The notes: generated from the letters alone by a model not told the origin. 45,574 nucleotides of DNA from a virus (IMGVR_UViG_3300037193_000175:1-45574), one strand, 5' to 3'; shown: positions 1-45,574, counted from the first letter of the stretch. Numbers and translations are program-made.

Positions 1-141
1 ATCGCTGCAAATCAAAGCTTCGGGGTTCTTCGACAATGGCGAGTTAAGCGCCGAACCGCGTTCCGAATACGCGCCCTTCGTTTTACACGTTCCGTCTTCT
101 TTGACGGCTATGTAATTGTTAACGTCGCGGCTATAGACAGC
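1..141. repeat. Left copy of 141-bp terminal direct repeat
   Basis: These bases are identical to 45434-45574. The polymerase reading frame continues through the joint in phase, so this is most simply the overlap of a circular or circularly permuted genome. 141 is the default largest k-mer of a common metagenome assembler, so the length is probably an assembly property and not a biological end. Confidence 0.95.
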
Positions 142-1602
142 TTGATATTGCGTTTCTTCGGTTACGAAGCCTGTCCGTTGTTCCCACATACCGACGACAT
201 GCTGTAACAGGTTGTGCTTTGACCGGGGGCACTTGATAACGATACCGTCCGTATTGGCGGACACGACGGGGATACCTTCGGCTTCCATCATTTCGATAAG
301 CAATAGCAATCCAAGTTGCCCCGTCATTGTCGTTTGGATTAGCAGCTTCGGCGCATAGATCGTCGAATACATATTGCCTTGCTTGCCGAAAGTGCCGTTA
401 ATGGCGATCTTCAGGCCCGCTTCGTCCGGGTTCTTTTGCGACTTCAACGTTAGACGAAGTTCGACGATACCGCCGTACGCCTGAAGATACACTTCGCCCA
501 AATGATCGGGAGCGTAACGGTTGTTCAGGATGATACGCGGGTAATAGCTGGCAACGTCGCGATCGATCAACAGCGTTTCGGCGTCGGCTTTATGTGCGAT
601 CGACTTTTCGGCGCTATGAAGTCCGCCCATTCCCATTTTGTACGCGGTCTTGCCGACGACAACCTTTAGATCGGCGATCGCTTCGGGCATACGCGGCGAA
701 CCCGCACCGTCCAGGAAGAAGGGAACGGCTTCGACGATCGCGAGCGCATCGCGTAGCGCCGGGCTTTCGAACGATACCCATTCGGGCGCTTCGTACTTGA
801 AGCTGAATTCTTCGTCGAATTCGGGCCGCTTCGGGTAACGCCCGGTAAGTTGGCGGATTTCGGCGTTGATAACGGCTTCGGCAACTTGAGCGTCGGACTT
901 CGAACGAAGGTCGATCTTGTATCGTTCGCCCAAGCGCTCGCGCAGTTGGATTGAAGCCCTTAGGCCGTATTTCGGTTCGGTATAGAGTAGTTCGGTTCCG
1001 TCCAGGTCGTTGAAGCAATAGTCGCGTATGTCGTTTACTTCTTCGGCCTTCAACTCGCTATGCGGGTCGATCGGGATTTCCTGAAGGCGCTTGGCGTGAA
1101 GCCGCGCCATGTACGTTTTCAACGAACCTTCAAGCGGAGCGACTTCGATCAAGTCGATATGGTTGTACTGCGAACGATAGCTGGCGTGCCGGACTTCGCG
1201 TATGATTATGTCGTCGGACAGTTCCTTCAACTCATACAGCGTAGCGCCACGAATGGCGGCTTCGATCATCGGGATATCGTATTGAATGCCGTTGAACGAA
1301 ATGATCTTGAACCAAAACAAGGCCCGGTGCAATTCGTCGCGCTTCCATTGCGGAAGCGGACCTTCGCCGAAATGGTCGATAAAGAAGTATTGGCCGGTTT
1401 CGATATGCTTGAACGCGCAAAGCCAATAGTTGCGGAAGCATTCGGTATCGTACGGGACTTCGGAACCGACGGCCAAGTTGAACGGCGAAGTCGTAAAAGT
1501 CCGATCGACGGGCGCGTAAGCTATGCGCTTAAGCGGCCCGTCGTATCGCTTTGCCCCTTTTGTCGGAAGCGGAGCGTAATCGTCGATATTGTCGAAGAAC
1601 AT
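1..1602 (-). CDS. Family B DNA polymerase with 3'-5' exonuclease (N-terminal 534 codons; continues at 45574)
   Basis: Replicative DNA polymerase, about 650 aa when joined with 45433-45083. Seen by translation from ATG at 1602: exonuclease motif I DTE at residues 52-54, motif II SFNGIQYD near residue 100, motif III YCFND near 195; polymerase motif A DVASYYPRII near 346-355, motif B KIAINGTFG near 400, motif C NTD at 450-452. In motif C the first Asp of the usual DTD is Asn; the second Asp is kept. It starts 8 nt after the clamp stop (1611), so the two are co-translated from one leftward operon. The length is short for family B, resembling compact phage enzymes. It is unlikely to be protein-primed because no TPR insertion or terminal-protein gene was recognised. 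It is cut by the contig ends only. Confidence 0.93.
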   Translation of the reverse strand, partial: MFFDNIDDYAPLPTKGAKRYDGPLKRIAYAPVDRTFTTSPFNLAVGSEVPYDTECFRNYWLCAFKHIETGQYFFIDHFGEGPLPQWKRDELHRALFWFKIISFNGIQYDIPMIEAAIRGATLYELKELSDDIIIREVRHASYRSQYNHIDLIEVAPLEGSLKTYMARLHAKRLQEIPIDPHSELKAEEVNDIRDYCFNDLDGTELLYTEPKYGLRASIQLRERLGERYKIDLRSKSDAQVAEAVINAEIRQLTGRYPKRPEFDEEFSFKYEAPEWVSFESPALRDALAIVEAVPFFLDGAGSPRMPEAIADLKVVVGKTAYKMGMGGLHSAEKSIAHKADAETLLIDRDVASYYPRIILNNRYAPDHLGEVYLQAYGGIVELRLTLKSQKNPDEAGLKIAINGTFGKQGNMYSTIYAPKLLIQTTMTGQLGLLLLIEMMEAEGIPVVSANTDGIVIKCPRSKHNLLQHVVGMWEQRTGFVTEETQYQAVYSRDVNNYIAVKEDGTCKTKGAYSERGSALNSPLSKNPEALICSD

Positions 1603-1610
1603 GCGGAACC

Positions 1611-2888
1611 CTAGAAAGGAATGTCGTCGTCTTCAATATCCGAAGCGGGCGCGATCGACGCCCAAACGTTCGCGTTCGGGTCCGCCCCTGTTAACCCTTG
1701 CGGGCCGTCCTGGAAAGCCGGGGCGGCTGGCGGTCCCCAACCGCCGCCGGAAGCGCCCTGCGCGGTTTCCTGGACGCCTGCGAAGGCTTCGGCGACTTGT
1801 TCCCCGCTCGCGTCGGCGGGCAACTCCCAATGCCACGCCGCGTCCGCCGCCGGGGCCGGGTCCGGCGCGGCCTGCGACCGCTTCATAATCGAGCCGCGCA
1901 ACATGCCGCCGTCAACGAAGAACGCGCGATCGTCGTTCGACGTGTAATCGATTTGAGCGCATACGGGTTCGATCAATCGAAGAAGCTTCGCGGTGAACGA
2001 ATGTCCGGCCTGAAGACCGGGAACGTCGTATGTCGCGCCGTACAGCGGACCGCCCGTATCCTGGTAGTTGTCGTACGTCGTCTTCAGCTTTTCTTCGTGG
2101 AAGTGAACGCCGCCGTCCTTGCTGAAGCTTTCGATCGCCTTGACGGCTTCGAACAGCCCTTCAGGAACCGCCGCCGGATAGGTTGGATAGTCGAACAGCC
2201 GTTCAACGTCCGGCCATTCCTCGCCGAACAACTGCGACTTGTACCACGCGCCGTCGTCGAAGTAGAACGTAACCGACTTGGCGCTGAAGCCGAAGCCTTC
2301 AAGCTTCTTCGGACATGCGGCGATCGCGGCGGCGAACGACTTTGGAATGACAAGGCCCGGCGGCAAGTCGATACCGTGCCAGTATTCGAAGATCACCGTA
2401 CCGTTGCAGCTAACCATTGTGTTAGCGCGAAGCAAGATCGACACTTCGATAACCCGTTCCGCTTCAAGCTTGATAAGCGGCAACAGCTTCGCGAAACCTT
2501 CTTTGATACGATCGTCGATCGTGGCAATACGAGGGTCCGGCATGACTTGCGGAATGTCTTCGCCGGGGATGCAAGGCACGGTTGCGCGTATCTTGTCGCC
2601 CTTCACTAGCAACGTACCGTTTTCGTTTTCGGTCAACGCGAGCGTCGTTCCGGCCTTGTTCAGCGCGTCGATCAATCGCCCTGTATGTGGGCAAAGCGCC
2701 AGTTCTTCTTCGACGGGATGCCCGGCGGTCAACGTGCCGTCCGTTGCGGTAATCCATTTGCCCGCTAGCCTCGCGTGCGCTTGGAAAGGCATTCCGCCTT
2801 CCTTGAACGCTACGCCGACGAAGTTCAGCGCTTCGGCGAGTTTCGCCGCCGCCTGCGATTGTGCTTTCTTAGTTGGACGCCTTGCCAT
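1611..2888 (-). CDS. DNA sliding clamp-like protein with SSB-type acidic C-terminal tip
   Basis: Probable polymerase processivity clamp, 425 aa. Residues about 15-330 resemble phage DnaN-like clamps (for example the stretch with NTMVSCNGTVIFEYWHGIDL and the following GLVIPKSFAAAI). From about residue 335 the chain becomes a low-complexity Pro/Ala/Gly/Gln linker and ends in DIEDDDIPF, the same last six residues (DDDIPF) as bacterial SSB. Start ATG at 2888 has AGAAAGGG upstream; it overlaps the preceding small gene by 20 nt, and polymerase follows 8 nt after the stop. The clamp-polymerase pairing supports the role; the SSB-like tail is unusual and suggests recruitment of SSB-binding proteins. 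An alternative is an unusual SSB, but the N-terminal part does not look like an OB fold. Confidence 0.72.
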   Translation of the reverse strand: MARRPTKKAQSQAAAKLAEALNFVGVAFKEGGMPFQAHARLAGKWITATDGTLTAGHPVEEELALCPHTGRLIDALNKAGTTLALTENENGTLLVKGDKIRATVPCIPGEDIPQVMPDPRIATIDDRIKEGFAKLLPLIKLEAERVIEVSILLRANTMVSCNGTVIFEYWHGIDLPPGLVIPKSFAAAIAACPKKLEGFGFSAKSVTFYFDDGAWYKSQLFGEEWPDVERLFDYPTYPAAVPEGLFEAVKAIESFSKDGGVHFHEEKLKTTYDNYQDTGGPLYGATYDVPGLQAGHSFTAKLLRLIEPVCAQIDYTSNDDRAFFVDGGMLRGSIMKRSQAAPDPAPAADAAWHWELPADASGEQVAEAFAGVQETAQGASGGGWGPPAAPAFQDGPQGLTGADPNANVWASIAPASDIEDDDIPF

Positions 2889-3117
2889 TGAACACCCTTT
2901 CTAGGTCAATTGCGGATTTGTATTGTTCACAGCCGTACGCGATAATTCTTGCGGGCGGACGTTGCCCGTTAAGGTTGCATCGTTCGCCGGGTTCGTCAAA
3001 GTTCTTGCACATAAGACACGTCGGCGAAGTCTTTACGACGTAGTTCGCCAAGCATTCGGCCATGTAACGACTAAGGGCCTTCAAGCCTTCGGCGTCCGAT
3101 CGAAAGTTAGAACTCAT
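2869..3117 (-). CDS. Small four-cysteine protein in the replication operon
   Basis: 82 aa, function unknown. It holds a C-x2-C pair (CLMC), then ERC and YGC, a possible zinc or Fe-S site between residues 34 and 64. The start at 3117 lies inside the last codons of the helicase gene (11-nt overlap) with GGAAG upstream, and its end overlaps the clamp start, so translation is coupled to both. Position suggests a replication accessory factor; this is inference only. Confidence 0.7.
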   Translation of the reverse strand: MSSNFRSDAEGLKALSRYMAECLANYVVKTSPTCLMCKNFDEPGERCNLNGQRPPARIIAYGCEQYKSAIDLERVFNGKASN

Positions 3118-4825
3118 ACGACAACACTTCCGGGTTCGGACGCTTGTTCAACCAAACGCGGATACGACGCGGGATACGAAGGTGTTCGGCGTTATGCAGA
3201 ACTTCGGCGTTGGTTTCCGGCGGTTCGACCGGCGCACGCTGGCGGAACCAATCGCGCCCCTTCTTCTTCGGAAAGCCGTCGCCTTCGACTGTTACCCATT
3301 CATAGAACGTACGAAGTCCGTTGCAGTAGTACGCCACCTTGACCGAATGCTTGCCCGACTTCCTGGACGTATGCGCTGAATAGACGACGCGCAGCACGTC
3401 GAAGTATTCGACAACCGGCAAGTCTGATCGCAACAGTTCTTCGTTTGAAGCCGTGCCCACAATGTTTTGAGCAAACTTGAATTCCTCGCCGCATACGATG
3501 CATTCGCGCGCCCTAGTGTGGTTGTACGCGCCGCAACCGTCGCATATCTTTACCGGAGCATCGCCAGCGCGGCCCTTGCCCTTCGGGTTCGGGATAACCG
3601 GGTCGTTGATCGGCCCTAGCCGCCGCGTGTTACCGGCGAAGTCCAGGACAAGGCAATGATGCTTCGTAAACTCGAAACCCGGTATGTACTGTTGAACGTT
3701 GCGCCAATCGTACGGTCGCGTTCCACGGCCTAGCATCTGAACCCATAGGCCCGTTGACATGGTAGGTCGCATCATCGCGATTAGATCAACCGGGGGATGA
3801 TCGAAGCCCGTTGTAAGAATGTCCTTATTGACGATGCAACGTAGTTCGCCGCGCTTGAACGCCGCAATCGTTTCGTCGCGGTCCTTGCGCTTCGAATGGA
3901 CGACGCCGGTTGGAACCCCGAACGTCGATCGCAGCATTTCGCCGATATGCTCGGCATGTTCGATACCGCTCGCGAAGACAAGCCAGGACCGCCGTTGCAT
4001 TCCTAGTTCCATGACTTCGCACAATGCCTTGTACGTTACGTCCGGGTCGTCAACTGCCGCCTGAAGTTGGTTTTCGGCGAAGTCGCCGGTTGACGACAAG
4101 CCGACGCCGGATACGTCAAGTTCGGTCGCAGTCTTCTTCGGGAAGATCGGCGCAAGATAGCCTTCCGCGATCAATCGACCGAAGCCTTCGATATTCGTCA
4201 AGTCGTACGCAATGTGACTGAAGATCGGCCCGTTGGTTAGAAGGCCCATGCCAAGCCGATAGATCGTCGCGGACAGTCCGATGATCTTCATGTACGGGTT
4301 GATCGCGAGTAAATCGAGTATCAGTTGACCGTACGAACTGTCCGCCGAAGGCCCTACTAGGTGCGCTTCGTCGATTACCAAAAGATCGCGATACCCTAGC
4401 ACGCTGCGACCGTGTTCGTCGTACTTGCCAACCATTGACTTTACGCCGCCGAATACGATCGGCTGTATGAAGTCCTTTTGCTTCAACCCGGCGCTGTAAA
4501 TCCCTAGCGGAGCGTGCGGCCAAATGCGTTGCATTTGCTTCGCGTTTTGTTCGATCAATTCCTTGATATGTGTTGCCATGATCGCCCGCGTTTGCGGGTA
4601 TATCCGAAAGGCCCGTTCAAGGAACTTGCCGAGTACGAACGACTTGCCGGTTCCGGTTGGCAGCGCGATAAGCGGGTTCGCTCGAATGGGCCTGCCTTCG
4701 GCGTCGGTTCCGCCGTGTTCTTCGAAGAAGCGAAATAGCGCGTCAACGCTTTCTTCCTGATACCAACGGTCCAGGCCGACATGCGGGGGAGTTAGCGAAG
4801 TCGCGAGCGCCAGCGAAGCGTTCAT
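3107..4825 (-). CDS. SF2 DNA helicase (DEAH type) with zinc ribbon
   Basis: ATP-dependent helicase of superfamily 2, about 572 aa. Visible motifs: Q-like RWYQEESVDAL near the start, Walker A LPTGTGKS (about 55-62), DEAH in VIDEAHL (about 152-155), motif III GLSAT (about 184-188), motif VI QMLGRGTRP, and a C-terminal zinc ribbon with CDGCG and CIVCG about 13 residues apart. The chosen ATG at 4825 overlaps the stop of the nuclease gene as ATGA; a longer reading to 4903 exists but lies inside that gene. It is comparable to RecQ/UvrB-like phage helicases that unwind at the fork or in recombination. Coupling to a Cas4-like nuclease suggests joint end processing. Confidence 0.9.
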   Translation of the reverse strand: MNASLALATSLTPPHVGLDRWYQEESVDALFRFFEEHGGTDAEGRPIRANPLIALPTGTGKSFVLGKFLERAFRIYPQTRAIMATHIKELIEQNAKQMQRIWPHAPLGIYSAGLKQKDFIQPIVFGGVKSMVGKYDEHGRSVLGYRDLLVIDEAHLVGPSADSSYGQLILDLLAINPYMKIIGLSATIYRLGMGLLTNGPIFSHIAYDLTNIEGFGRLIAEGYLAPIFPKKTATELDVSGVGLSSTGDFAENQLQAAVDDPDVTYKALCEVMELGMQRRSWLVFASGIEHAEHIGEMLRSTFGVPTGVVHSKRKDRDETIAAFKRGELRCIVNKDILTTGFDHPPVDLIAMMRPTMSTGLWVQMLGRGTRPYDWRNVQQYIPGFEFTKHHCLVLDFAGNTRRLGPINDPVIPNPKGKGRAGDAPVKICDGCGAYNHTRARECIVCGEEFKFAQNIVGTASNEELLRSDLPVVEYFDVLRVVYSAHTSRKSGKHSVKVAYYCNGLRTFYEWVTVEGDGFPKKKGRDWFRQRAPVEPPETNAEVLHNAEHLRIPRRIRVWLNKRPNPEVLSYEF

Positions 4826-5724: not shown

Positions 5725-5744
5725 GTCGCAACCCCTTAGGTGAA

Positions 5745-5819: not shown

Positions 5820-5828
5820 CTCGCCGAA

Positions 5829-5852: not shown

Positions 5853-5860
5853 GCGATCGG

Positions 5861-6601: not shown

Positions 6602-7594
6602 TTACTGAACGTCGCGGTTGAACAAGTCGATTGCCCCGCCCGTTGCGACGTGTACGGCGTTGGCAAGTTGGTTCCAGCTATACCCGGCGATCACGTTTGA
6701 CGGCGTGCCTTGGGGAGCGGTTGGAATTGGAATAGTGCCCACAATGCCGAAGCGATTGCCAGCGACGTAAGCGGGTTTGCGTTCGACGCCCATAACGCGA
6801 CCGTTGTTCATCGAAGTTGCAAGCTGCGCTTGATCGCCCTTCGTAATGAACAGCGGTTCATGGACGAAACCGATAAGGTCCGCCCATTGCGTAAGCATTT
6901 CACGCTTGCCGTAGTTCTTGTTGTTCTTCGGCGAATGCAACAGCAAATCCCATGCGTCGTATTCGCCAAAGGCCGGGTCGATCATCTTCGACGCGAACAC
7001 ATGCGCCGTAAAGATGATGTTGATACCGCCGTAAAAGGCTAGTTCGTCGCACGCGCTCAACAGCTTGGCGAACTGTTCGTTCGCATAGCCGTACGCCTTG
7101 CCGTACCCGCCAAGGGCGGCTTCCATCGTAATTCCCTTCGGATTACCTGGACGCCAATCTTTGTCGCTCGCGATCGTCTTTTCGTGGATACGCTGTTCAG
7201 TCGCGGTCGAACTGTCGAACACAAGCGATTGATACGGGAACTGCCCGCGCTGCGATCGAAGCTTGATATCGTCAACCGTCGCTAGCAGTTCGTCGAAGTG
7301 TTCGATTTGCTTCGTCTTCGGAACGTTGATCGAACCGTATCCCATTTCGAGCGGGATAAGAAGCGCCTTGGGAGCGCCGCAAGCGATCGTCGTCTTGCCC
7401 GCCTTTTCGACGCCGGATACGACGATGCGAGCGCCGACTTGCCGCGTCCCGGTTTCGATCGTGTCTAGGGCGGACGCTCCCGCACCGGCTGGCGCGGCGG
7501 TTCCGATGCCCATTTGCGCGAACGGGTTCGAAGGCACGCCCCCGGCATTTGTGGGCATACCGTTAGCGGCCATAGCCGAAGCGAAATCGTTCAT
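6602..7594 (-). CDS. Sak4-like RecA-fold recombination ATPase
   Basis: 330 aa. Walker A is GVEKAGKTT (about residues 60-68) and Walker B is SLVFDSSTATEQ (about 122-133), followed by NIIFTAHV, the pattern of the phage Sak4/RecA-like annealase family that works with DUF669 proteins. It probably loads on SSB-coated DNA for strand annealing in recombination-dependent replication. The start ATG at 7594 overlaps the previous stop (ATGA). A short low-complexity N-terminus precedes the ATPase core. Confidence 0.88.
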   Translation of the reverse strand: MNDFASAMAANGMPTNAGGVPSNPFAQMGIGTAAPAGAGASALDTIETGTRQVGARIVVSGVEKAGKTTIACGAPKALLIPLEMGYGSINVPKTKQIEHFDELLATVDDIKLRSQRGQFPYQSLVFDSSTATEQRIHEKTIASDKDWRPGNPKGITMEAALGGYGKAYGYANEQFAKLLSACDELAFYGGINIIFTAHVFASKMIDPAFGEYDAWDLLLHSPKNNKNYGKREMLTQWADLIGFVHEPLFITKGDQAQLATSMNNGRVMGVERKPAYVAGNRFGIVGTIPIPTAPQGTPSNVIAGYSWNQLANAVHVATGGAIDLFNRDVQ

Positions 7595-13396: not shown

Positions 13397-14128
13397 TTGC
13401 GACCTATCGTATCGATGTTCGACGAAAGCGGGCTTATGCTTCGCCCTTGGGCGGAACGCGGCTTCGAATGCTATGCGTACGACAAGCTGAACGACGGTCG
13501 CGTTGAAACATTCATCGGGGGGGGCGTTATCCGATACGTCCAAGCCGATCTTATGCCCGATGATTGGCGCGTCGAAGGTTCGACGAACGCTGCGATCGAA
13601 GCGATTATCGCATTGGACCCGCTGTTCGTCTTCGGCTTCGGCCCATGTACCGAACTGGCGACGTGCGGTGCGAAGCACTTCGCGTCCAAGCTGGCGATCG
13701 ACCCGGACTGTCAAGCGCGAGCCGTGGCGCTATGGCGTACGACGGAAACCGTCGGACTTCGTACCGGCTCGCCGTGGTTCGCTGAAAACCCGCGATCGGT
13801 CCTGTCCACCATGTACCGTCGCCCGGACTTCAAGTTCGACCCTGCCGACTACGGCGGCTATCTCGCCGAAGACGACGTACACCCGACGTATCCCGAAATC
13901 ATCCCGCCGCGTGACGCCTATACGAAGGAAACTTGGATATGGCACGGCAACGGCTTCGTCGTACCGGGCCGTCGCTACGTCGTCGATTGCGGGTACTATC
14001 CCGGCTGGTCGAACCTTGGCGGCAAGTCTGAACGTACGAAGCGCATTCGATCGACTACGCCGCGTGGTTGGGCGATCGCCGTACACTTTGCGAACTGGAC
14101 ACTGAAGCAATGGCAAAAGGCAGCATGA
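13397..14128 (+). CDS. Cytosine-C5 DNA methyltransferase-like protein
   Basis: 243 aa. The layout is that of phage C5-methyltransferase-like proteins: VSMFDESGLMLRPWAERGF as the SAM-binding motif I, GFGPCTELATCGAKHF with the Pro-Cys of motif IV, WFAENPRSVLST as motif VI, then DYGGYL and YTKETWIWHGNGF. The usual target-recognition region is very short, so specificity cannot be read. The TTG at 13397 is preferred: it follows AACCGGGCAGGGGA, the leader seen before other starts here, and places motif I right at the N-terminus; an in-frame extension to 13274 has no ribosome site. It may protect phage DNA from host restriction. The recognised site is unknown. Confidence 0.75.
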   Translation: MRPIVSMFDESGLMLRPWAERGFECYAYDKLNDGRVETFIGGGVIRYVQADLMPDDWRVEGSTNAAIEAIIALDPLFVFGFGPCTELATCGAKHFASKLAIDPDCQARAVALWRTTETVGLRTGSPWFAENPRSVLSTMYRRPDFKFDPADYGGYLAEDDVHPTYPEIIPPRDAYTKETWIWHGNGFVVPGRRYVVDCGYYPGWSNLGGKSERTKRIRSTTPRGWAIAVHFANWTLKQWQKAA

Positions 14129-23986: not shown

Positions 23987-25592
23987 CAAATGGGGCAAAG
24001 CGGTTGTCGGCGCGATCGCCGGGGCAACCCTTGTCAGTGCGGCGGCGCTCGCCACGCCGCACGACGGCGTTCAACTCGAATACGGTTGGTCTTACCTTAA
24101 GGGTACGTCGCAGGAATTCGCGCTTCGGACGAATGCGAACCATATCCTGTATCACGGCACGCGCGGTCCAGGTAAGACCGATTGCCAGCTTGCGCGCTTC
24201 GCTTCGAACGTCGGCGTCGGATACGGTTCGTATTGGCGCGGCGTTATCTTCGATCGGAAGTACAAGAACCTTGACGACTTGATTATCAAGTCCAAGCGTA
24301 TCTTCAAAAAGATATTCGGCAACAAGTGCAAGTTCCTTGAAAGCAAGGGCGATTACAAATGGGTTTGGGATACGGGCGAAGAACTTATGTTCCGCCAGTT
24401 CCTGAAGTCCGACGACTATTGGAACTATCACGGTCAAGAATTCCCGTTCATCGGTTGGAACGAACTTTGCAAGTATCCGAATTCCAACGCATACGATAGT
24501 ATGATGAGTTGCAATCGTTCGTCCTGGACGCAAGAGAAGGACGGCGTATGGCTTGAAGGCGAAAAACGTTGGAACCTTGCGCCGATACCGCTTGAAGTCT
24601 TCAGTACGACGAACCCTTACGGACCGGGGCACAATTGGGTTAAGGCGAAGTTCATTGACGTTGCGCCGGTTGGGCGCGTTCATATTACGGAAGTTCAAGC
24701 CTTCGACCCGCGTATCAAGCAAGACGTGACGGTTCGACGGAAGCAAGTTGCGATCTTCGGTTCGTACAAGGAAAATCCGTACCTGGACCCGATATACGTT
24801 GCCGAACTCGAAAGCATTACGGACCCGAACAAGCGCGCGGCTTGGCTTGAAGGGGATTGGGATATCGTCGCTGGCGGCGCGATCGACGACGTTTGGCGTA
24901 AGCATATCCATATCCTGCCGCGCTTCGCCATTCCCGAAGGTTGGCGCATCGATCGCGCATTGGATTGGGGCAGTTCCCATCCTTGTAGTGTGGGCTGGTT
25001 TGCCGAAGCCAACGGGGAAGAAGCCGTAATCGAGTACGACGACGGTTCGACGGTTACGTTCTGTCCGCCGCCGGGTTCGATAATTCAAATCGGCGAAGTG
25101 TACTTGACTGAAAAGCTAGGTTCGAACGTCGGGTTGCGTTTGAGCGCGCCGACGATTGCTGAAAAGATCAAAGCTTACGAAATGCGGCTTATGGCCGAAG
25201 GTTGGATTGAACAGCAACCTTGGCCTGGACCCGCCGACAACCAAATCCGCGACGTACGCGAACAAGACGTTGATACGATCGAAAAGAAGTTCGCCGACAA
25301 CGGGGTTCGTTGGGAAAGGTCTGATAAGTCCCCCGGCTCGCGCAAGAACGGGTTGCAGCTTATCCGCGATCGTTTAGAAGCTGCGATGATCGGCAAGGAA
25401 GAACCGCACCTATACTTCATGGATAACTGCCGGGCTTCGATCGCGACATTGCCCACATTGCCGCGTGACGAAGACGACCCGGACGACGTAGATACCGAAG
25501 CTGAAGATCATGCTTACGACATGGTTCGATATCGTGTATTGAAGGGTGCGAACCGGCTTGCGAAGAAGCTAAAGGCTAATTGGGCAAGCTGA
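23955..25592 (+). CDS. Terminase large subunit
   Basis: 545 aa packaging ATPase/nuclease. Walker A is HGTRGPGKTD (about residues 68-77); Walker B-like PFIGWNEL (about 161-168) has Asn before the catalytic Glu. The nuclease domain begins at RALDWGSSHPCSVGWF (about 333-348, metal Asp) and ends with DTEAEDHAYDMVRYRVL, the usual final Asp motif. Short hydrophobic N-terminus (VVGAIAGATLVSAAALA) precedes the ATPase. Order small-large-portal is standard. Class (headful or cos) cannot be decided here. Confidence 0.92.
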   Translation: MPSPNEPSRLNKWGKAVVGAIAGATLVSAAALATPHDGVQLEYGWSYLKGTSQEFALRTNANHILYHGTRGPGKTDCQLARFASNVGVGYGSYWRGVIFDRKYKNLDDLIIKSKRIFKKIFGNKCKFLESKGDYKWVWDTGEELMFRQFLKSDDYWNYHGQEFPFIGWNELCKYPNSNAYDSMMSCNRSSWTQEKDGVWLEGEKRWNLAPIPLEVFSTTNPYGPGHNWVKAKFIDVAPVGRVHITEVQAFDPRIKQDVTVRRKQVAIFGSYKENPYLDPIYVAELESITDPNKRAAWLEGDWDIVAGGAIDDVWRKHIHILPRFAIPEGWRIDRALDWGSSHPCSVGWFAEANGEEAVIEYDDGSTVTFCPPPGSIIQIGEVYLTEKLGSNVGLRLSAPTIAEKIKAYEMRLMAEGWIEQQPWPGPADNQIRDVREQDVDTIEKKFADNGVRWERSDKSPGSRKNGLQLIRDRLEAAMIGKEEPHLYFMDNCRASIATLPTLPRDEDDPDDVDTEAEDHAYDMVRYRVLKGANRLAKKLKANWAS

Positions 25593-25609: not shown

Positions 25610-27112
25610 ATGGCAAATGTCGGCTTCGTTCATCCCGAAATCAAGGTTCGTATCCCGTCGTACGAACTAATCCGCGATTGCATCGCTGGCGAAACAACAA
25701 TCAAGTCGCGGAAGGAAAAGTACCTTCCGAAGCCGAACCCCGAAGACACGTCGGAAGACAACAACAAGCGGTATAATGCCTATTTGACGCGCGCCGTCTT
25801 TTACAACGTAGCGCAGCGCACGCTTGCCGGACTTGTCGGGCAAGTCTTCCTTCGCGACCCTTCGGTTAAGGTTCCGCAGTTGCTTGAACCCGTCGTAATC
25901 GACGCAACCGGGTCCGGCGTGCCGCTAGATCAACTCGCGCAAGAAGCAACCGGCTTCGGCGTCGGCTTCGGGCGCTTCGGCCTGTACGTCGATTACCCTT
26001 CCGTACTCGCGCCGGAAAGCGAAGTCGAACCGGGCGACGACGCGCAGCCGGGGGCGACTGTCGCCGATCTTGAAACCGGCGAAGTTCGCCCGGTTATCCG
26101 CGTCATTCCGCCTTGGGATTGCATTAACTATCGCGTCAAGCGGCGCGGTGCGAAACTCATTCTGTCGCTTGTCGTCTTCCGCGAAGACGCCGTTGTTGAA
26201 GACGACGGTTTCGAGACGAAGAAGAAAGATCAATGGCGCGTCCTTCGCCTGGACGAAAACGACCTTTACGTTATCGAAGTGTACCGCAACAAGAACGGGA
26301 CGAAGGCGGACGAAACGTACTTCCCGACGGACGCGAGCGGCGCACGCCTGAACGAACTTCCGTTCATCTTCGGCGGTTCGACGAACAACGACCCGAAGCC
26401 GGACCTTATGCCGATGTACGACCTATGTTCGTTGAACATCGCGCATTACCGCAACAGCGCGGATTACGAAGAAGCCGTGTACATGCTTGGACAGCCTACG
26501 GCGTGGTTCGGCGGTCTTACCGAAGAATGGGTAAAGAACGTCATGGGCGGAACCGTGGCGCTCGGCTCGCGATCGATTATCCCCCTTCCGCAGAATTCGT
26601 CGGCGGGCTTGCTTCAGGTCGAACCGAACACGCTCGCGAAGGAAGCGATGGACCAAAAGGAAGCGCAAATGCTCGCGCTTGGCGCGAAGCTGGTCGAAGG
26701 CTCCCAAGTCGAACGTACGGCGACGGAAGCCGATATCGACAATGTTTCGGAAACGTCAATTCTATCGACCGTCGCAGTCAACGTCGGCAACGCCTTCGAA
26801 TGGGCGTTGGGTTGGGCGGCGAAGTTCAGCGGCGCGGACGAAGGCGGTATCGAGTACGACTTGAATACCGAATTCGACCTTGTGAACCTGTCGCCGGACG
26901 AACGCCGCCAGCTTCTTGCCGAATGGCAGTCGGGCGGTATCCTAGACGAAGAATACCGCGACAACATGCAACGCGCCGGTATCGCAACCGTGCCGTTCGC
27001 GCAGTTCAAGACGAAGGCAGCGGAGCAAGACGCCGAACGCATGGCGAACGCCGTCGCCGAAGCGGAAGCCTTGCATAGCGCGACGGGCGGCAACGACCCG
27101 CCGGGGGCATAA
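25610..27112 (+). CDS. Portal protein (DUF4055 type)
   Basis: 500 aa, forms the dodecameric portal vertex. Sequence features match DUF4055 portals: YNAYLTRAVFYNVAQRTLAG, GLVGQVFLRDP, ATGFGVGFGRFGLYVDYP, PFIFGGSTNNDPKP and YEEAVYMLGQPTAWFGGL. ATG at 25610 after GCGGGGAATAG is preferred to an upstream TTG at 25580 inside the terminase end. Overlaps the next gene as TAATG. Confidence 0.9.
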   Translation: MANVGFVHPEIKVRIPSYELIRDCIAGETTIKSRKEKYLPKPNPEDTSEDNNKRYNAYLTRAVFYNVAQRTLAGLVGQVFLRDPSVKVPQLLEPVVIDATGSGVPLDQLAQEATGFGVGFGRFGLYVDYPSVLAPESEVEPGDDAQPGATVADLETGEVRPVIRVIPPWDCINYRVKRRGAKLILSLVVFREDAVVEDDGFETKKKDQWRVLRLDENDLYVIEVYRNKNGTKADETYFPTDASGARLNELPFIFGGSTNNDPKPDLMPMYDLCSLNIAHYRNSADYEEAVYMLGQPTAWFGGLTEEWVKNVMGGTVALGSRSIIPLPQNSSAGLLQVEPNTLAKEAMDQKEAQMLALGAKLVEGSQVERTATEADIDNVSETSILSTVAVNVGNAFEWALGWAAKFSGADEGGIEYDLNTEFDLVNLSPDERRQLLAEWQSGGILDEEYRDNMQRAGIATVPFAQFKTKAAEQDAERMANAVAEAEALHSATGGNDPPGA

Positions 27113-28818: not shown

Positions 28819-29781
28819 ATGGCACTCTCCGATCTGGCGGTATTCTCCGAATACGTCTATTCGTCCATGTCCGAAGTCGTCGCGCAGCAGGTCGAACTGT
28901 TCAACGCGGCGTCGGGCGGCGCGATCATCTTGCGGCAGGCCGCGAACGAAGGCGACTACAGCGACATTGCCCTTTGGGCGAAGATCAGCGGCCTTGTCCG
29001 CCGTCGCAACGCCTACGGGACCGGCGCGCAGGCCGCGAAGGAACTCGAACACCTGATCGATACGATGGTCAAGGTTGCCGCCGGTACGCCGCCGGTCAAC
29101 ATGCCGCCGTCCATGTTCACCTGGATACAGCGGAACGAGGAAGAAGGCGGGGCCGTCGTCGGACAGCAGCTTGCGGGCGACATGCTCGCCGACATGCTGA
29201 ACACCGCGATCATGGCGTTCGTCGCCGCCGTGGACGGCGAAGCCGCCGTGACGCACGACTACAGCGCCACCGGCACGGCGAAGCTGTCCGAACTGAACAA
29301 GGCCGCTGGCAAGTTCGGCGATCGCGCGACCGACATTCGCGCGTGGCTGATGCATTCGAAGGTGCTGTTCGATATCTTCGGCACGGCGCTGGCGAATACC
29401 GAAGCCCTGTTCAACTTCGGCACCGTCAACGTTCGCCAGGACGGCTTCGGACGCCCGTTCGTCATTACCGACAGCGCATCGCTTATCAACACGACGCCGA
29501 ACCCGGACGTTTATCGTTCGCTTGGGCTTGTCGTCGGCGGTATCGTCGTCGAAGCGAACAACGACTTCGACGACAATATCGAAACGTCGAACGGCGACGA
29601 GAATATCCAGCGGACCTATCAGGCCGAATGGACGTACAATCTCGGCGTCAAGGGATACGCCTGGGACAAGGCGACCGGCGGCAAGTCCCCGAACGACGCG
29701 GCCCTTGCGACCGCGAACAATTGGGACAAGTACGCCACGTCGCACAAGGACACGGCGGGCGTTATCCTTCTTTCGCAGTAA
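28819..29781 (+). CDS. Major capsid protein
   Basis: 320 aa, consistent with an HK97-fold coat protein (it resembles gp13-like capsid proteins: VVAQQVELFNAASGGAIIL at the N-terminus, then DYSDIALWAKISGLVRRRN, LFDIFGTALANTEALFNFGT, GRPFVITDSASL and YQAEWTYNLGVKGYAWD). Position after the scaffold and its own ribosome site (AAAGGGAA) fit. A hairpin follows the stop. No fold was computed. Confidence 0.85.
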   Translation: MALSDLAVFSEYVYSSMSEVVAQQVELFNAASGGAIILRQAANEGDYSDIALWAKISGLVRRRNAYGTGAQAAKELEHLIDTMVKVAAGTPPVNMPPSMFTWIQRNEEEGGAVVGQQLAGDMLADMLNTAIMAFVAAVDGEAAVTHDYSATGTAKLSELNKAAGKFGDRATDIRAWLMHSKVLFDIFGTALANTEALFNFGTVNVRQDGFGRPFVITDSASLINTTPNPDVYRSLGLVVGGIVVEANNDFDDNIETSNGDENIQRTYQAEWTYNLGVKGYAWDKATGGKSPNDAALATANNWDKYATSHKDTAGVILLSQ

Positions 29782-37883: not shown

Positions 37884-39055
37884 TGACGTACGGTATCGTC
37901 CTTCAAGTCCCCGAAACGCCGATTACCGAAGATTGGTTTTGGATTACCGATATCGGCGTTGCTTACGACGGAACCGAAGACAGCGTACCGCTTCTTCGGT
38001 ATCCTCGCCGCATGTTCAACGGACAGTTCCGGTTCGACGACGCCGCCGATCTTCGGCGTCATTTGGCAATGGCGACGAAGCGGTTCAAGAGCGAATTCGA
38101 CTTCCCGCTTTGGCAGTATCAATCGAAGCTGAAGGCGGCAGTCGCAGCCGGGGCGGATACTGTTACAGTCAACGCGAGGCGCGGCGACTTCCGCGTTGGC
38201 GGCGCGGCGATCATCGTCGAAGGCGACACATACGAACAAGTCGAAATCGCCGCCGTTACCGAAACCGAACTTCAATTCGCGGACGTACTCGCCAACGACT
38301 ATTCGGCTCGCGCGATCGTATGCCCGGTTTCGACGGTGTACACGAATACGAACGCGCAAGTAACGCGCAGCAACCCGGATTACGTCGCGACGGCTTCGTT
38401 CACGTTCCTAGAGCGCGTGCCCACAACCCCGCTAGTGTCGCCGCTGAACGAAGCCGTCGTCGCGACGTTCGACGATCTTCCGTTGCTGCCTTACGTGCCG
38501 ATCGGGACTAGCTTCGAAGGGACGGTCGATACCGGCCTTCAGCCGGTCGAATACACCGGCCTTATCGATCTTGTGTCGCCCTGGACATACGAACAATGGG
38601 CGTATCAGCTTACGTTCAATGCGAACCGGATTGGAAACGTTGACGACTGCGAATGGTGGCAGGCGTTCGCCGATGAAATTCAAGGCTCGGCTTATCCGTT
38701 CTTGTTTCCGACGAACCGCGCCGATTTCGAGATTGTGACGCCCGCGATCGGGGGCGGTACGACTATCACGGTCGAAGGCGACGAATACAGTCAACACTAT
38801 TCGGGGCACGGCGGCTTCAGCCGTATATTCATCGATACCGACGCCGGACGCCATTACGCGAAGATCACCGGCCTTGCTTCGGTTGGCGGCAACGATCAAT
38901 TGGTTTTCTCCCCCGCTTTGCCGGTTGGCGCGGGCTGGACGACGAACCAAAAGCTAGGCTTCCTCTTGAAAGTCCGCGTCGATAATGACAAGGTATCGTT
39001 CAAGCATTACGGGCTTACGACCGAAGTATCGATTTCGATTAGGACTGTCGTATAA
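37883..39055 (+). CDS. Distal tail protein
   Basis: 390 aa from ATG at 37883 (TAATG). Beta-rich; PLWQYQSKLKAAVAAGADTV and the region FTFLERVPTTPLVSPLNEAV resemble distal tail proteins encoded after tape measures in alphaproteobacterial phages (DUF2460-like position). Probably forms the ring joining tube and hub. Confidence 0.7.
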   Translation: MTYGIVLQVPETPITEDWFWITDIGVAYDGTEDSVPLLRYPRRMFNGQFRFDDAADLRRHLAMATKRFKSEFDFPLWQYQSKLKAAVAAGADTVTVNARRGDFRVGGAAIIVEGDTYEQVEIAAVTETELQFADVLANDYSARAIVCPVSTVYTNTNAQVTRSNPDYVATASFTFLERVPTTPLVSPLNEAVVATFDDLPLLPYVPIGTSFEGTVDTGLQPVEYTGLIDLVSPWTYEQWAYQLTFNANRIGNVDDCEWWQAFADEIQGSAYPFLFPTNRADFEIVTPAIGGGTTITVEGDEYSQHYSGHGGFSRIFIDTDAGRHYAKITGLASVGGNDQLVFSPALPVGAGWTTNQKLGFLLKVRVDNDKVSFKHYGLTTEVSISIRTVV

Positions 39056-39855
39056 TGGCGACGAAGACCGAACTTTACCGCTTCAGCGAACAAGCTTCGG
39101 CCCTTGTATGGCTTTACACGTCCGGTAACGAAGTCGTGTCGTACGACGCCGGGGACGGCCCCGAAGATTACGTTCCGGCGTCGATAAGCCGTACCGAAGC
39201 TGAAGTGAAGAACGAACTGGCGCGGGCGAATATCGAAGTCAACGTGCCGTTGACGAACCCTGCCGCTGTACGTTGGATGCAAGACAACGGCGAAAAGATC
39301 GTATCATTGACGATCTTCGAACGCGAGAAGAACGGAACTGTCAACGTCGTATGGAAGGGACGGTTGGCGAGCCTCTTACCGGGCATGAAGGACGTTTCGT
39401 TGAAGATGGAAAGCATCTTCACAAGCCTTCGTCGTCCAGGGCTGCGCGCTCGATACCAGCGCAGTTGTCGTCACGCCCTGTACGGGCGCGGCTGTACCTT
39501 GGACCCGGAAACCTTCGCGATTGCAGGCACCGTCACGGCGGCGGCTGGCACGGTCCTTACGATCGCCGCTGCCGACGCCCAAGCGGACGGCTATTTCGTC
39601 GGCGGGATGCTGCGCGCGGCGGACGGAACCCTTTCGTATATCGTCGGGCATGTGGGCAGCGCGATTACGCTTCAGCGCATGTCGCGTTCGATCGCCGACG
39701 AGATTACCGGCGGCTTCCCGTTCGACGTAACGTTGTATCCCGGTTGCGACCATAGCCGGGCGACATGCGATAGCAAGTTCGACAACATTCTGAATTACGG
39801 CGGGTTCGATTTCATTCCGACAAAGAACCCGATGGGCGGGAGTTCGATCGTCTAA
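39055..39855 (+). CDS. DUF2163 / BR0599-type baseplate hub protein
   Basis: 266 aa. The N-terminal half matches DUF2163 (LVWLYTSGNEVVSYDAGDG) and the C-terminal half the BR0599 pattern with cysteines: RSCRHALYGRGCTLDP, YPGCDHSRATCDSKFDN and NYGGFDFIP. This family occurs in gene transfer agents and many alphaproteobacterial siphophages, where a homologue binds an Fe-S cluster at the tail tip. TAATG overlaps on both sides. Confidence 0.88.
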   Translation: MATKTELYRFSEQASALVWLYTSGNEVVSYDAGDGPEDYVPASISRTEAEVKNELARANIEVNVPLTNPAAVRWMQDNGEKIVSLTIFEREKNGTVNVVWKGRLASLLPGMKDVSLKMESIFTSLRRPGLRARYQRSCRHALYGRGCTLDPETFAIAGTVTAAAGTVLTIAAADAQADGYFVGGMLRAADGTLSYIVGHVGSAITLQRMSRSIADEITGGFPFDVTLYPGCDHSRATCDSKFDNILNYGGFDFIPTKNPMGGSSIV

Positions 39856-40085
39856 TGTGGTTCTTCATTGCCTTGTTCGTTGCTGCGCTTGTTATTTCGT
39901 ATGCGACAATGCCGAAGCCGCAATCGCAGCCCCCGGCAGGTATCGGCGAAGTTCAAGCGCCGATCGCCGAAGAAGGCGTGGAAATCCCGGTGTTGTTCGG
40001 CACGCGCGATCTTAACGGCCCGAACGTCGTATGGTACGGCGACTTGAAGACTGTTGCGATCAAGTCGAAGGGCGGCAAGAAGTGA
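39855..40085 (+). CDS. Small membrane-anchored tail assembly protein
   Basis: 76 aa. N-terminal hydrophobic helix MWFFIALFVAALVISYATMP, then Pro-rich EVQAPIAEEGVEIPVLFGTR and PNVVWYGDLKTV. This small protein is regularly found just before the hub gene. It may guide tail-tip assembly. Confidence 0.72.
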   Translation: MWFFIALFVAALVISYATMPKPQSQPPAGIGEVQAPIAEEGVEIPVLFGTRDLNGPNVVWYGDLKTVAIKSKGGKK

Positions 40086-40276
40086 CGGTTATAGTAACGA
40101 TCAAGGATATTCGAGCCTGCCGCATGTGCAGCGGCGGTACTCGCGACTTCTTCAAACGTCACGATATGGATTGGAACAAGTTTCTGTCCGAAGGACTGCC
40201 CGAAGAAGAATTCATTCGGACCGGCGATGCTATGGCAATGCAAGTAGTCGAAAAGGCGCGGGAACGTCATGGGTAA
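40082..40276 (+). CDS. Small tail-region protein with CxxC
   Basis: 64 aa from GTG at 40082 overlapping the previous stop. ACRMCSGGTRDFFKRHDMDW then FIRTGDAMAMQVVEKARER. Short proteins with this Cys pair are common before J-type hub genes; possibly a metal-dependent assembly factor. Overlaps the hub start by 8 bases. Confidence 0.68.
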   Translation: MTVIVTIKDIRACRMCSGGTRDFFKRHDMDWNKFLSEGLPEEEFIRTGDAMAMQVVEKARERHG

Positions 40277-43223
40277 AGGCGGCAAAGCGCAAACGATCGG
40301 ATACAAGTATCACCTTGGGATGCACCTTGGGTTGTGCGCCGGTCCGATCGACAAGATTACGCGCCTTCAGGTTGACGGGCGCGAAGCCTGGACCGGCACA
40401 AGTACCGGCGGTTCGATCGCGGTTAGCAAGCCCGAACTGTTCGGCGGCGAGAAGCGCGAAGGCGGCGTGTCCGGTACGATCGATGTTGCGATGGGCGACC
40501 CGGCGCAAGGACAGAACAGCTACCTTGTTTCAAAACTAGGTTCGCTCATTCCGGCGTATCGCGGCGTCGTCGGATTGATCTTCCGTCAAGCCTATCTCGG
40601 CAACAATCCGTACCTGAAGCCCTGGAGCGCGCGAGGCACGCGCGTTCACGTCCGACAGGACGGTATCGAACAATGGTACGACGAAAAGGCGGGTATTGGT
40701 ACGACGAACCCCGCACCCGTTGACGGACAGCCTTGGTTCGATAGCGGAACTAACTTCTTTACGATCGGGGCCGGGTCCGAAACAAGCGGCACGCAAACCG
40801 AATTTCAATCGTGGTTCCCCGGCTATATCGACAGTCTTCGGGTTACTAAGGGTGTTGCTAGATATCCAGCGAAGAAGTTCGCCGTTCCGACTGAAGAATT
40901 CCCGAACGGTCCGACGGACGGTTATTGGGATAGCGTCATTACCCTGTTACGCTTCGACGGGGCGAATGGCGCGACGGCTTCGACGTGCGAAAAGGGCAAC
41001 GCGGTTGCCCATAACGGCGGCGCTTCGCTGTCAACTGCGATCAAGAAGTTCGGCCTTTCTAGCTGTCATTTCGACGGCGTAAACGATTGGGTAAAGGTTA
41101 CAGTCGGGACCGAAGGGCAAGACCTTGGCGAGACGTTCACGATCGAAGCTTGGGTCTATCCGACGGGACGTGTCAACATCGGCCCGATAACCGGAAGCTA
41201 CATTTACGGTGCGCCAATTTTGGCAGCGGGTCCGATTAGCACTTCGGGAATGGATACGTACTTTTCGGTACTTGGCGAAAACGCCATGTTCCACATGCAA
41301 AGCGCGTATCCTGACTTCGATACGTACTTGCATCTTGTCGGACAACTGAAGTCCGTTCCGCTGAATGAATGGACGCACATTTCAGTTTGCCGCGACGGCG
41401 CTTCGGGCCTGTATTGGGTTCACGTCAACGGCGAACTGGCAACGTATTCGACCGATGGGAGCGACTTGAACGCTGCCCACATTATCCGCGAATGCTTGAC
41501 GGACCCCGATTGGGGCATGGGTTATACGGACGGCGACGTTGACGACGTTTCGTTCATGTCCGCCGCCGATACCTTCGCGGACGAAGGCTTAGGGTTGTCC
41601 TTGCTTTGGGATAAGACGACGAAGATCGAAGACTTCGTTCAGCTTGTCCAAAGTCACGTTGACGTTGCGCTGTACGTCTCGCGCACGACGGGCAAGTACG
41701 TTCTGAAGCCTATTCGTGGCGATTACGACGAAGGCGCGCTGATTTCGCTTGACGAAAGCAACATCATAAGCATCGATAATCCGACGCGCATTGCGTCCGG
41801 CGAACTTACCAATTCCGTTACCGTGACGTATTGGGATGCTTCGACCGGCAAGGACGCGAGCGTTACCGTTACCGATACGGCAATGGTTCAACAGCAAGGC
41901 GTCATTATCAACGCCCCGCTTCAGTATCCAGGCTTCAGCAACGCCCGTAATGCGACGATCGCCGCGCAGCGGGACTTGCGGGTTCTGTCGTCCGCGCTGT
42001 TGTCTTGCACGATTACCGCGAACAGCGATGCAAAGCCGCTGAACATCGGCGACGTATTCAAGTTCAGTTGGGCGAAATGGGGCCTTGTTGACGTTGTAAT
42101 GCGCGTCAACGGCATTAGCTACGGAACCGGACGCAACAACCGCGTCAAGATCAACTGTACGCAAGACGTGTTCGACACGAATACGACGGTTGTTATCAGC
42201 GTCCCCGATGGGGATTGGTTGGACCCTTCTTCGCCGCCAAGCCCTGTCCTGGCACAACTCGCCGTCGAAGCGCCGTATTGGGAGTTGGTACAGGGCCTTG
42301 GACAGTCCGATACCGACAACAAGCTTCTTACGCACCCCGAAATCGGATACGTCATTGCGGCGGGCGGTCGCGCACCTTCGGCGATCAACGCCAGCTTGCA
42401 TACCGATAGCGGGAGCGGATACGCCGACGTTGGCGCGCTCGATTTCTCGCCGTTCGGCTATCTCGCCGCCGATATCGGCAAACTCGATACGGCGTTGACC
42501 TTGGACGGCGGCAACGATCTTTCCGAAGTGATTGTGGGCACGCATGTTCAAATCGGCGACGAACTTATGCGCGTTGACACGATCGACGCGGATACCGGCG
42601 AATTGACCGTTGGACGCGGTGTACTCGATACGGTTCCGGCTGAACATACGGCTGGCGAACTGGCTATGTTTTGGGACGTGTACGCGGCTTTCGACCCGAC
42701 GGAATACGTCGCGACCGAAGAAGTTGACGCGAAGATCGTTCCGGTATCCGGTAGCGGTGTTCTGCCGATCGAAGCGGCGGTCGCAATGACTGTCACTATG
42801 GACAGCCGAGCGGCTCGCCCGTACGCCCCCGGCGATCTTCGTATCAACGGGGACAGCTACGTTGAAGGCGTGACGTACGAAGGTGAAGTTGAAGTGTCCT
42901 GGACGGACCGCGATCGCCTTCAGCAAACGTCGGGAACGTTGATCGATCACACGGCGGGCAACATCGGTCCCGAAGCCGGAACCGAATATCGCCTTCGCGT
43001 CTATATTGACGACGTGCTAGATCAAACTATTGAACCCGCCGTAAGCCCGCAAGCCGTGACGCCCGGCGGTTCGGGCACCGTGCGGGTTGACGTGTATTCC
43101 AAGCGCGACGGCCTTTATTCGTGGCAGGGTCCGTCGCATAGCTTCCTAAGCGCCAACTTCCGCGTTACTGAAGAAGGCGACAACCGTATTACCGAAGACG
43201 CCGAAGACATGGCGACGGAGTAA
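40269..43223 (+). CDS. Central tail hub / host-specificity protein (J/TipJ-like) with lectin-like insert
   Basis: 984 aa. Hub signatures: MGKGGKAQTIGYKYHLGMHL, FRQAYLGNNPYLKPWSARG, then NAAHIIRECLTDPDWGMGY and LGLSLLWDKTTKIEDFVQLV as in lambda J. Between them (about residues 145-400) is a concanavalin/LamG-like insert whose last strands (PGYIDSLRVTKGVARYPAKK) come before its first ones (DSVITLLRFDGANGATAST; HFDGVNDWVKVT; FTIEAWVYPTG; EWTHISVCRDG), i.e. circularly permuted. The C-terminal part has fibronectin-like beta domains. It likely binds the receptor and starts DNA ejection. Confidence 0.88.
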   Translation: MGKGGKAQTIGYKYHLGMHLGLCAGPIDKITRLQVDGREAWTGTSTGGSIAVSKPELFGGEKREGGVSGTIDVAMGDPAQGQNSYLVSKLGSLIPAYRGVVGLIFRQAYLGNNPYLKPWSARGTRVHVRQDGIEQWYDEKAGIGTTNPAPVDGQPWFDSGTNFFTIGAGSETSGTQTEFQSWFPGYIDSLRVTKGVARYPAKKFAVPTEEFPNGPTDGYWDSVITLLRFDGANGATASTCEKGNAVAHNGGASLSTAIKKFGLSSCHFDGVNDWVKVTVGTEGQDLGETFTIEAWVYPTGRVNIGPITGSYIYGAPILAAGPISTSGMDTYFSVLGENAMFHMQSAYPDFDTYLHLVGQLKSVPLNEWTHISVCRDGASGLYWVHVNGELATYSTDGSDLNAAHIIRECLTDPDWGMGYTDGDVDDVSFMSAADTFADEGLGLSLLWDKTTKIEDFVQLVQSHVDVALYVSRTTGKYVLKPIRGDYDEGALISLDESNIISIDNPTRIASGELTNSVTVTYWDASTGKDASVTVTDTAMVQQQGVIINAPLQYPGFSNARNATIAAQRDLRVLSSALLSCTITANSDAKPLNIGDVFKFSWAKWGLVDVVMRVNGISYGTGRNNRVKINCTQDVFDTNTTVVISVPDGDWLDPSSPPSPVLAQLAVEAPYWELVQGLGQSDTDNKLLTHPEIGYVIAAGGRAPSAINASLHTDSGSGYADVGALDFSPFGYLAADIGKLDTALTLDGGNDLSEVIVGTHVQIGDELMRVDTIDADTGELTVGRGVLDTVPAEHTAGELAMFWDVYAAFDPTEYVATEEVDAKIVPVSGSGVLPIEAAVAMTVTMDSRAARPYAPGDLRINGDSYVEGVTYEGEVEVSWTDRDRLQQTSGTLIDHTAGNIGPEAGTEYRLRVYIDDVLDQTIEPAVSPQAVTPGGSGTVRVDVYSKRDGLYSWQGPSHSFLSANFRVTEEGDNRITEDAEDMATE

Positions 43224-43228
43224 AGAAC

Positions 43229-44116: not shown

Positions 44117-44118
44117 TC

Positions 44119-44790: not shown

Positions 44791-44797
44791 AGCTAGG

Positions 44798-44827
44798 TCC
44801 AGGGGCAGCGGTCAAACTGCCCCTGGA
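44798..44827 (+). terminator. Strong hairpin between converging operons
   Basis: TCCAGGGGCAG (44798-44808), loop CGGTCAAA, CTGCCCCTGGA (44817-44827): a perfect 11-bp stem. No T-run on either side. It stands 8 bases after the last tail gene and faces the end of the leftward operon, so it may act in both directions. Confidence 0.72.
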
Positions 44828-44846
44828 TTGCCCGGAAACCGGGCTT

Positions 44847-45005
44847 CTAGCGCCGATCGGCGGTTCCGGCTCCCCGCGTGCCGGCACGGCGCGTCCTGTA
44901 CGCCTTGCAGCGGGCTTCAGCGCGGCCCTTGACGACCTTCTTCGATCGCGAGGCGCTCCATTGATCGCGGGCCGTGGTGGACACTAGATCGCCCGGCCTT
45001 CGCAT
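44847..45005 (-). CDS. Possible small basic protein downstream of the polymerase
   Basis: 52 aa from ATG at 45005 (a TTG at 45032 is an alternative). Sequence is Arg/Lys-rich (SASRSKKVVKGRAEARCKAY). It lies 77 bases beyond the polymerase stop in the same direction and would be the last leftward gene. No ribosome site is visible, so it may be spurious. Confidence 0.35.
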   Translation of the reverse strand: MRRPGDLVSTTARDQWSASRSKKVVKGRAEARCKAYRTRRAGTRGAGTADRR

Positions 45006-45082
45006 TATACGACAGTTTCGTTGGAAGTTCAATAGCGATTACGAACGCTTCGTCGTAAGTACGACACGGTTCGTCGCATACG

Positions 45083-45574
45083 TCAAATAAACAGTTGGCC
45101 TTGACGGTGCCGATTGAAGTACCCGATATCTTCTAAGATCGAATACGCCCGATCGACGTACATTTCGTAATTGATATCGTCGGGCAGTTCGTCGGGTAAT
45201 TCCATGCAAGGCTTAGCGCCTTCACTGTTCGATACTTTGTTGCCGCTCGCGATGTACTGTATAATTCCATGTACGCCGGTCGCGTAATACCAACGAACGA
45301 CTTTGCCCAAGTACCAACCGTCCTTGTGTCCGCCGCCTCGCACGTTGCGAACGACGATGAACCGGCGGATATCGCGACAGGCTCGAATGGTATCCTGAAC
45401 CGGCGTGCCGTTGGTTAGAAGCGCCTGGACCGCATCGCTGCAAATCAAAGCTTCGGGGTTCTTCGACAATGGCGAGTTAAGCGCCGAACCGCGTTCCGAA
45501 TACGCGCCCTTCGTTTTACACGTTCCGTCTTCTTTGACGGCTATGTAATTGTTAACGTCGCGGCTATAGACAGC
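45083..45574 (-). CDS. Family B DNA polymerase, C-terminal part (continues from position 1)
   Basis: 163 codons plus stop; the first 47 codons (45574-45434) duplicate codons at 141-1, leaving 116 unique C-terminal residues (for example GTPVQDTIRACRDIRRFIVV and VVRWYYATGVHGIIQYIASG, the thumb region of phage family B enzymes). The frame agrees exactly with 1-1602, giving one 650-aa protein on the circular map. Confidence 0.9.
   Translation of the reverse strand, partial: AVYSRDVNNYIAVKEDGTCKTKGAYSERGSALNSPLSKNPEALICSDAVQALLTNGTPVQDTIRACRDIRRFIVVRNVRGGGHKDGWYLGKVVRWYYATGVHGIIQYIASGNKVSNSEGAKPCMELPDELPDDINYEMYVDRAYSILEDIGYFNRHRQGQLFI
45434..45574. repeat. Right copy of 141-bp terminal direct repeat
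   Basis: Identical to 1-141. It should be removed once when circularising the sequence. Confidence 0.95.

Follow-up and report, generated by a model that had tools for sequence, protein, structure and literature searches.

Loss of GANTC and of dozens of other restriction-enzyme sites from a phage genome probably reflects restriction-site avoidance at an extreme scale

INTRODUCTION

Around one viral genome in ten shows complete or near-complete elimination of restriction sites; in the survey of Rusinov et al. (2018), 3.9% of phage–site pairs were excluded, and type I/IIG sites were not avoided (PMC6286503). Depletion of one particular word, GANTC, the target of the methylase CcrM, has already been published for pelagiphages (Seong et al. 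2022, PMC9516812). Another way to resist restriction is 7-deazaguanine modification of DNA, which was shown for phage CAjan to block restriction enzymes (Hutinet et al. 2019, PMC6884629). Here we describe the IMG/VR virus record IMGVR_UViG_3300037193_000175 (45,574 bases; ‘the window’ denotes this whole stretch), a complete phage genome from which GANTC is missing along with dozens of other sites. We estimate a probability of about 0.85 that this loss is restriction-site avoidance of the known kind, at an extreme scale, achieved by elimination of sites rather than by modification of DNA.

The window resembles the virulent double-stranded DNA phages of Rusinov et al. (PMC6286503) in that it eliminates orthodox type II sites (observed/expected <0.1), is double-stranded DNA and has no integrase among its genes scanned. 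With the pelagiphages (PMC9516812) its clade shares clade-wise GANTC depletion and CcrM-bearing alphaproteobacterial hosts, though the phage family and the host order are different. The loss in pelagiphage HTVC011P (bases 1–39000) is not GANTC-specific: GANTC stands at 1/84 (observed/expected, here and below), GATC at 0/80 and CCWGG at 0/27, and the published pelagiphage depletion may be general site avoidance. The Septimatrevirus members Pseudomonas phage 73 and Stenotrophomonas phage DLP_2, as well as Burkholderia phage KL1, have a purge of six-cutters in common with the window; unlike the window, they keep GANTC (0.69–0.92 of expectation) and lack GATC and CCWGG. As to the 7-deazaguanine phages (PMC6884629), a relative of the window, Variovorax phage VPv64, apparently evades restriction as they do, by means of QueC/QueE/DpdA-like genes, whereas QueC is missing from the window and from the other purged relatives that were tested, which lose sites instead.

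RESULTS

Absence of GANTC

A string search found no GANTC on either strand of the 45,574 bases, nor in the closed circle of 45,433 unique bases left after removal of an end repeat; the expected number was 104 under a maximal-order Markov model and 174 under a second-order one. One could attribute the absence to composition, codon usage or mutational bias, as GAG and CTC are rare in the genome and lower the expectations for GAGTC and GACTC. Nevertheless, GAATC and GATTC alone are represented by no copy versus about 150 expected, and 300 synonymous-codon shuffles of the coding sequence, with protein and codon usage fixed, produced 67.3 ± 6.5 GANTC and never fewer than 51, against none in the actual genes. 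The non-coding part (8,990 bases by our own gene calls) also has none, versus 32 expected, while one-mismatch neighbours of GANTC occur at 0.88–1.19 of expectation, in a comparison where shuffling put the exact word at 68 and none was observed. GANTC is below one-tenth of expectation under three nulls and the depletion is specific to the exact word; the probability that bias produced it is close to nil.

Codon choice agrees with this picture. All 47 Ser codons that follow Asp or Glu are AGC (39) or AGT (8), with no TCN (P = 7e-24), although TCN makes up 68% of Ser codons genome-wide and TCG is the most frequent of them (304 of 631). Asp/Glu-Ser dipeptides themselves are scarce, 47 versus 82 expected from composition. 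The initial annotation had pointed both to the missing word and to this codon restriction, citing Asp-Ser-Ser encoded as GAC AGT TCG in two genes; indeed, GACAGTTCG occurs once in the DNA helicase gene (3107–4825, minus strand; copy at 4334–4342) and once in the Sak4-like recombinase gene (6602–7594, minus strand; copy at 7208–7216).

Other eliminated and retained words

GANTC is only one among many eliminated words, a circumstance that the initial annotation overlooked. A REBASE site was considered testable when 10 or more copies were expected, in a set not restricted to enzymes known from hosts, and eliminated when it stood at or below one-tenth of expectation. By this definition 56 of the 435 testable sites are eliminated in the window, 38 of them being absent outright; among palindromic sites the count is 29 of 115. 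Control phages showed far fewer: 4 of 508 in VPv64, 5 of 507 in Sansa, 4 of 505 in the distant phage G014 and 11 of 490 in phiCbK. The purge is broader than in the survey of Rusinov et al., and it extends to asymmetric words (GATGTC, CCGACC, CCCAG) with all-or-none behaviour. Besides GANTC, the absent words include GGATC, RGATCY, CYCGRG, GTMKAC, CGGCCG, GTCGAC, GGCGCC, CCGCGG, GACGTC and ACGCGT; untouched or enriched are GATC (344/267), CGATCG (175/87), CCWGG (75/46) and GAATTC (33/21).

Equal absence of many unrelated words had been named beforehand as an outcome that would speak against selection on GANTC. In number, many words are as absent as GANTC; however, palindromic restriction sites are strongly over-represented among them, and they are not neighbours matched in composition. 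Half of the testable palindromic 6-mers (14 of 28) are eliminated, compared with about 5% of asymmetric ones (64 of 1238; Fisher P = 7e-11). Since dozens of other enzyme sites were removed alongside GANTC, the loss is better read as evasion of restriction than as a special link to CcrM.

We also saw that GATC is over-represented in the window, yet GGATC and GATCC are totally absent, and that among the measured relatives retaining GATC only the window is missing GGATC. Asymmetric words likewise are present in full or hardly at all: GATGTC has 0–1 copies in all purged relatives measured and 57/26 in VPv64; CCGACC stands at 0/50 in the window versus 73/48 in Sphingomonas phage Kharn; CCCAG at 1/37 in the window versus 43/36 in the relative G001. 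Several of the eliminated asymmetric words do not appear in the REBASE list that we used.

Relatives and their hosts

A tree of portal proteins (25610–27112, plus strand, in the window; 60% identity to the portals of Sphingomonas phages Lucius and Kharn) placed the window within a 15-member clade (support 100/99) that takes in Kharn, Kimi and Birtae and whose phages are all poor in GANTC. Among named phages, Sphingomonas phages Kharn, Lucius, Eidolon, Birtae and Kimi stand closest to the window, together with Variovorax phage VCLv21; the Septimatrevirus group comes next. We infer a phage of Sphingomonas type, from a siphophage-type lineage, with the host of the window deduced from these relatives.

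Fourteen of the 15 clade phages have 0–8 GANTC sites; the remaining member has 38/245, all 38 of the form GAWTC. The window and other clade members disagree at 46–57% of four-fold sites, and the word is still depleted, so its absence must be actively maintained. Depletion in all 15 phages might also be expected if the absence was inherited from an ancestor and selection had since ceased, but at such four-fold divergence sites would have returned; moreover, other lost words, GTCGAC and GGATC, stand at full level in sister phages. We regard simple inheritance as very improbable. Site states are near all-or-none and switch among close relatives, with GTCGAC at 0/45 in the window versus 60/31 in G001, and GGATC at 0/50 versus 38/41. 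Another switch was observed between Birtae and Kimi, both isolated on strain LR55: GATC stands at 451/336 in the former and at 0/89 in the latter, and a search for a Dam-type methylase (PF02086) found none in either phage.

Beyond the clade, five phages of gamma- and betaproteobacterial hosts (phage 73, DLP_2, LPPA15, KL1 and Kmi2C) retain GANTC at 0.69–1.06 of expectation, with GATC and CCWGG absent or strongly depleted; beta- and gammaproteobacterial relatives purge six-cutters but retain GAWTC. Rhodobacter phages RcTitan (1/98) and RcSpartan (0/101) have lost GANTC. RcTitan, of which RcSpartan is a relative, groups in the tree with phage 73, DLP_2 and LPPA15; because the two Rhodobacter phages lost the word and their gammaproteobacterial tree-neighbours did not, the loss tracks host group and occurred on two or more occasions. 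Lines of this phage group on Alphaproteobacteria lost GANTC, whereas it was kept on Pseudomonas, Stenotrophomonas, Burkholderia and Klebsiella; the association of GANTC loss with CcrM hosts is real, as a correlation. A record that stands apart is ‘Sphingomonas’ phage PAU (bases 1–30001), with 32% GC and a normal GANTC count (147/131), a combination far from that of other Sphingomonas phages; its recorded host may be wrong.

CcrM and its possible role

The initial annotation proposed very strong selection, exerted either by a restriction system or by a need to escape CcrM-linked control. Very strong selection is borne out, and the restriction alternative is well supported by the purge of dozens of unrelated sites and by a relative that has DNA-modification genes and retains its sites. 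A driving role of CcrM-linked control is not supported. Under the latter explanation CcrM and its partner GcrA would disturb phage genes or replication, and GANTC would be counter-selected without any cutting. It agrees with the near-universal presence of CcrM in Sphingomonadales: with a search query checked against PDB 6PBD, we found CcrM in all 38 named Sphingomonadaceae/Erythrobacteraceae and in 189 of 201 sampled Sphingomonadales genomes. CcrM is established for the class to which the other alphaproteobacterial hosts belong; our own analysis of its presence in particular strains covered Sphingomonadales only. It agrees as well with the host distribution of GANTC loss, which takes in Sphingomonas, Rhodobacter and one Pelagibacter phage and spares the Pseudomonas, Stenotrophomonas, Burkholderia and Klebsiella relatives. 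Further, pelagiphages are often GANTC-poor, while SAR11 is without known restriction systems (PMC9516812).

Other phages of CcrM-bearing groups, however, hold GANTC at 0.2–0.5 of expectation: Sansa 54/159, phiCbK 79/153, Lacusarx 59/125, SIO1 50/116, PBC5 45/150, RcapNL 31/107, R6L 49/143 and phiLM21 36/161. These phages of Caulobacter, Sphingobium, Roseobacter, Rhodobacter (RcapNL), Sinorhizobium and Erythrobacter span 0.22–0.52, far from zero and close to or slightly under host DNA itself, for which 690 kb of sequence flanking ccrM in sphingomonads gives 0.52. R6L encodes a CcrM-like methylase (PMC5463345), as does phiLM21, going by a title in the reference list of the same paper. Escape from CcrM would also leave unexplained the dozens of unrelated lost sites, the equally complete loss in coding and non-coding DNA, and the additional lack of GATC and CCWGG in HTVC011P. 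With other alphaproteobacterial phages near the host level of GANTC, we rejected it as the sole driver, and judge it improbable as an explanation of the loss.

DNA modification

VPv64, whose portal is 53% identical to that of the window, has eliminated 2 of 33 palindromes and retains GANTC (106/145) along with almost every other site. At 38577–42386 it carries genes matching QueC (E = 2e-54), a radical-SAM protein resembling QueE and, in the position of DpdA of the 7-deazaguanine pathway, a member of the queuine-transferase family (phrog_887); these adjoin polymerase and clamp genes. The VPv64 record carries no annotation. Judging by these genes, VPv64 apparently evades restriction through 7-deazaguanine modification of its DNA and retains its sites; site avoidance is relaxed in this single case of predicted DNA protection. 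VCLv21, also from Variovorax, is QueC-less and has GANTC at 0/138. In the first QueC search neither the window nor the 20 other phages had the gene, and annotation with a QueC search showed no queuosine operon in three further relatives.

The only methyltransferase-like gene found in the window (g13; 13415–14128, plus strand; phrog_757, E = 5e-52) has homologues in 1,477 phage records and within the clade is common to the window and one other member, G002. Its product is ∼46% identical to phage proteins annotated as C5-cytosine methylases; because of these annotations, protection of the GANTC adenine by g13 is unlikely. A search of solved structures with g13 gave no match. We also considered g13 as the cause of GATC survival and rejected it, since Birtae, VCLv21, G001 and others retain GATC without the gene. 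Searches with PF01555, PF00145 and PF02086 matched nothing in the window or the clade, the single match being PF00145 in G014; thus no phage-encoded CcrM-type GANTC methylase (PF01555) was detected in the window or its relatives.

Other features of the genome

The end repeat of 141 bases (1–141 identical to 45434–45574) marks a circularly closed contig, and a minus-strand open frame of 660 codons spans the contig junction at the position of the Kharn DNA polymerase gene. Genes present are those for terminase, portal, capsid, tail, primase, helicase, Sak4, lysis and a MazG-like protein. The terminase large subunit (23955–25592, plus strand) shares 71% identity with the terminase region of Kharn, and the major capsid protein (28819–29781, plus strand) has 66–84% identity to counterparts across the clade. 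The helicase matches Pfam ResIII/Helicase_C and phrog_16; the Sak4-like recombinase matches phrog_124 and PF13479.

DISCUSSION

Restriction-site avoidance would operate here as follows. The lineage would escape host restriction by eliminating recognition sites and leaving its DNA unmodified; a newly arising GANTC would be cut by a GANTC-cleaving (HinfI-like) nuclease, such nucleases would be encountered often enough in alphaproteobacterial host populations, and variants without GANTC would survive.

Several observations weigh against this interpretation. The host of the window is known by inference from relatives, and VCLv21 infects a betaproteobacterium. Lacusarx, a Sphingobium phage, purges 14 of 30 palindromes but retains GANTC, so that pressure on this word must be patchy among alphaproteobacterial phages. 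The modification contrast comes from one relative, VPv64, with modification predicted from genes; another non-purging relative, G013, is without QueC, hence modification is not the sole route to keeping sites. The initial annotation had suggested a check of the host lineage for CcrM or a HinfI-like system. CcrM is encoded, but no convincing second, HinfI-type GANTC methylase appeared among ∼240 sphingomonad genomes in the CcrM-query search, the four exceptions being a CcrM fragment, a second CcrM-like match and two weak matches of other type (38 and 37% identity). A search of 249 Pseudomonadota for HinfI-type methylases yielded only CcrM and shorter relatives (36–48% identity, mostly ∼290 residues) of possibly other specificity. 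Nor was a GANTC nuclease identified, the searches having been directed at methylases and not at nucleases.

Either the restriction–modification systems concerned are rarer or use another methylase class, or the nuclease leans on CcrM; we hold the last option to be possible but doubtful. In this special form of site avoidance, a methylase-less GANTC nuclease would be common in Alphaproteobacteria, with the chromosome shielded by CcrM, and the clade would avoid it. One could expect then that GANTC is eliminated in alphaproteobacterial lines alongside true restriction sites, as observed, and the near-universal CcrM with no second methylase found fits too. On the other hand, the methylase-directed searches turned up no candidate nuclease, GANTC methylases of another class could have escaped the CcrM search, and protection by CcrM varies with the cell cycle; we think this arrangement unlikely.

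As far as the literature examined shows, the breadth of the purge, the clade-wide comparison, the VPv64 contrast and the fact that asymmetric words, too, are lost in an all-or-none manner are new. As a natural experiment in anti-restriction the clade is unusually clean: dozens of sites are lost or, in VPv64, the DNA is apparently modified and sites are kept. When an alphaproteobacterial phage is depleted of GANTC, other sites should be checked before escape from CcrM is invoked. The list of missing words predicts restriction activities in real host use. More speculatively, Alphaproteobacteria might commonly hold methylase-less GANTC-cutting nucleases that rely on CcrM, and the list might serve as a record of host specificities, some of them undescribed.

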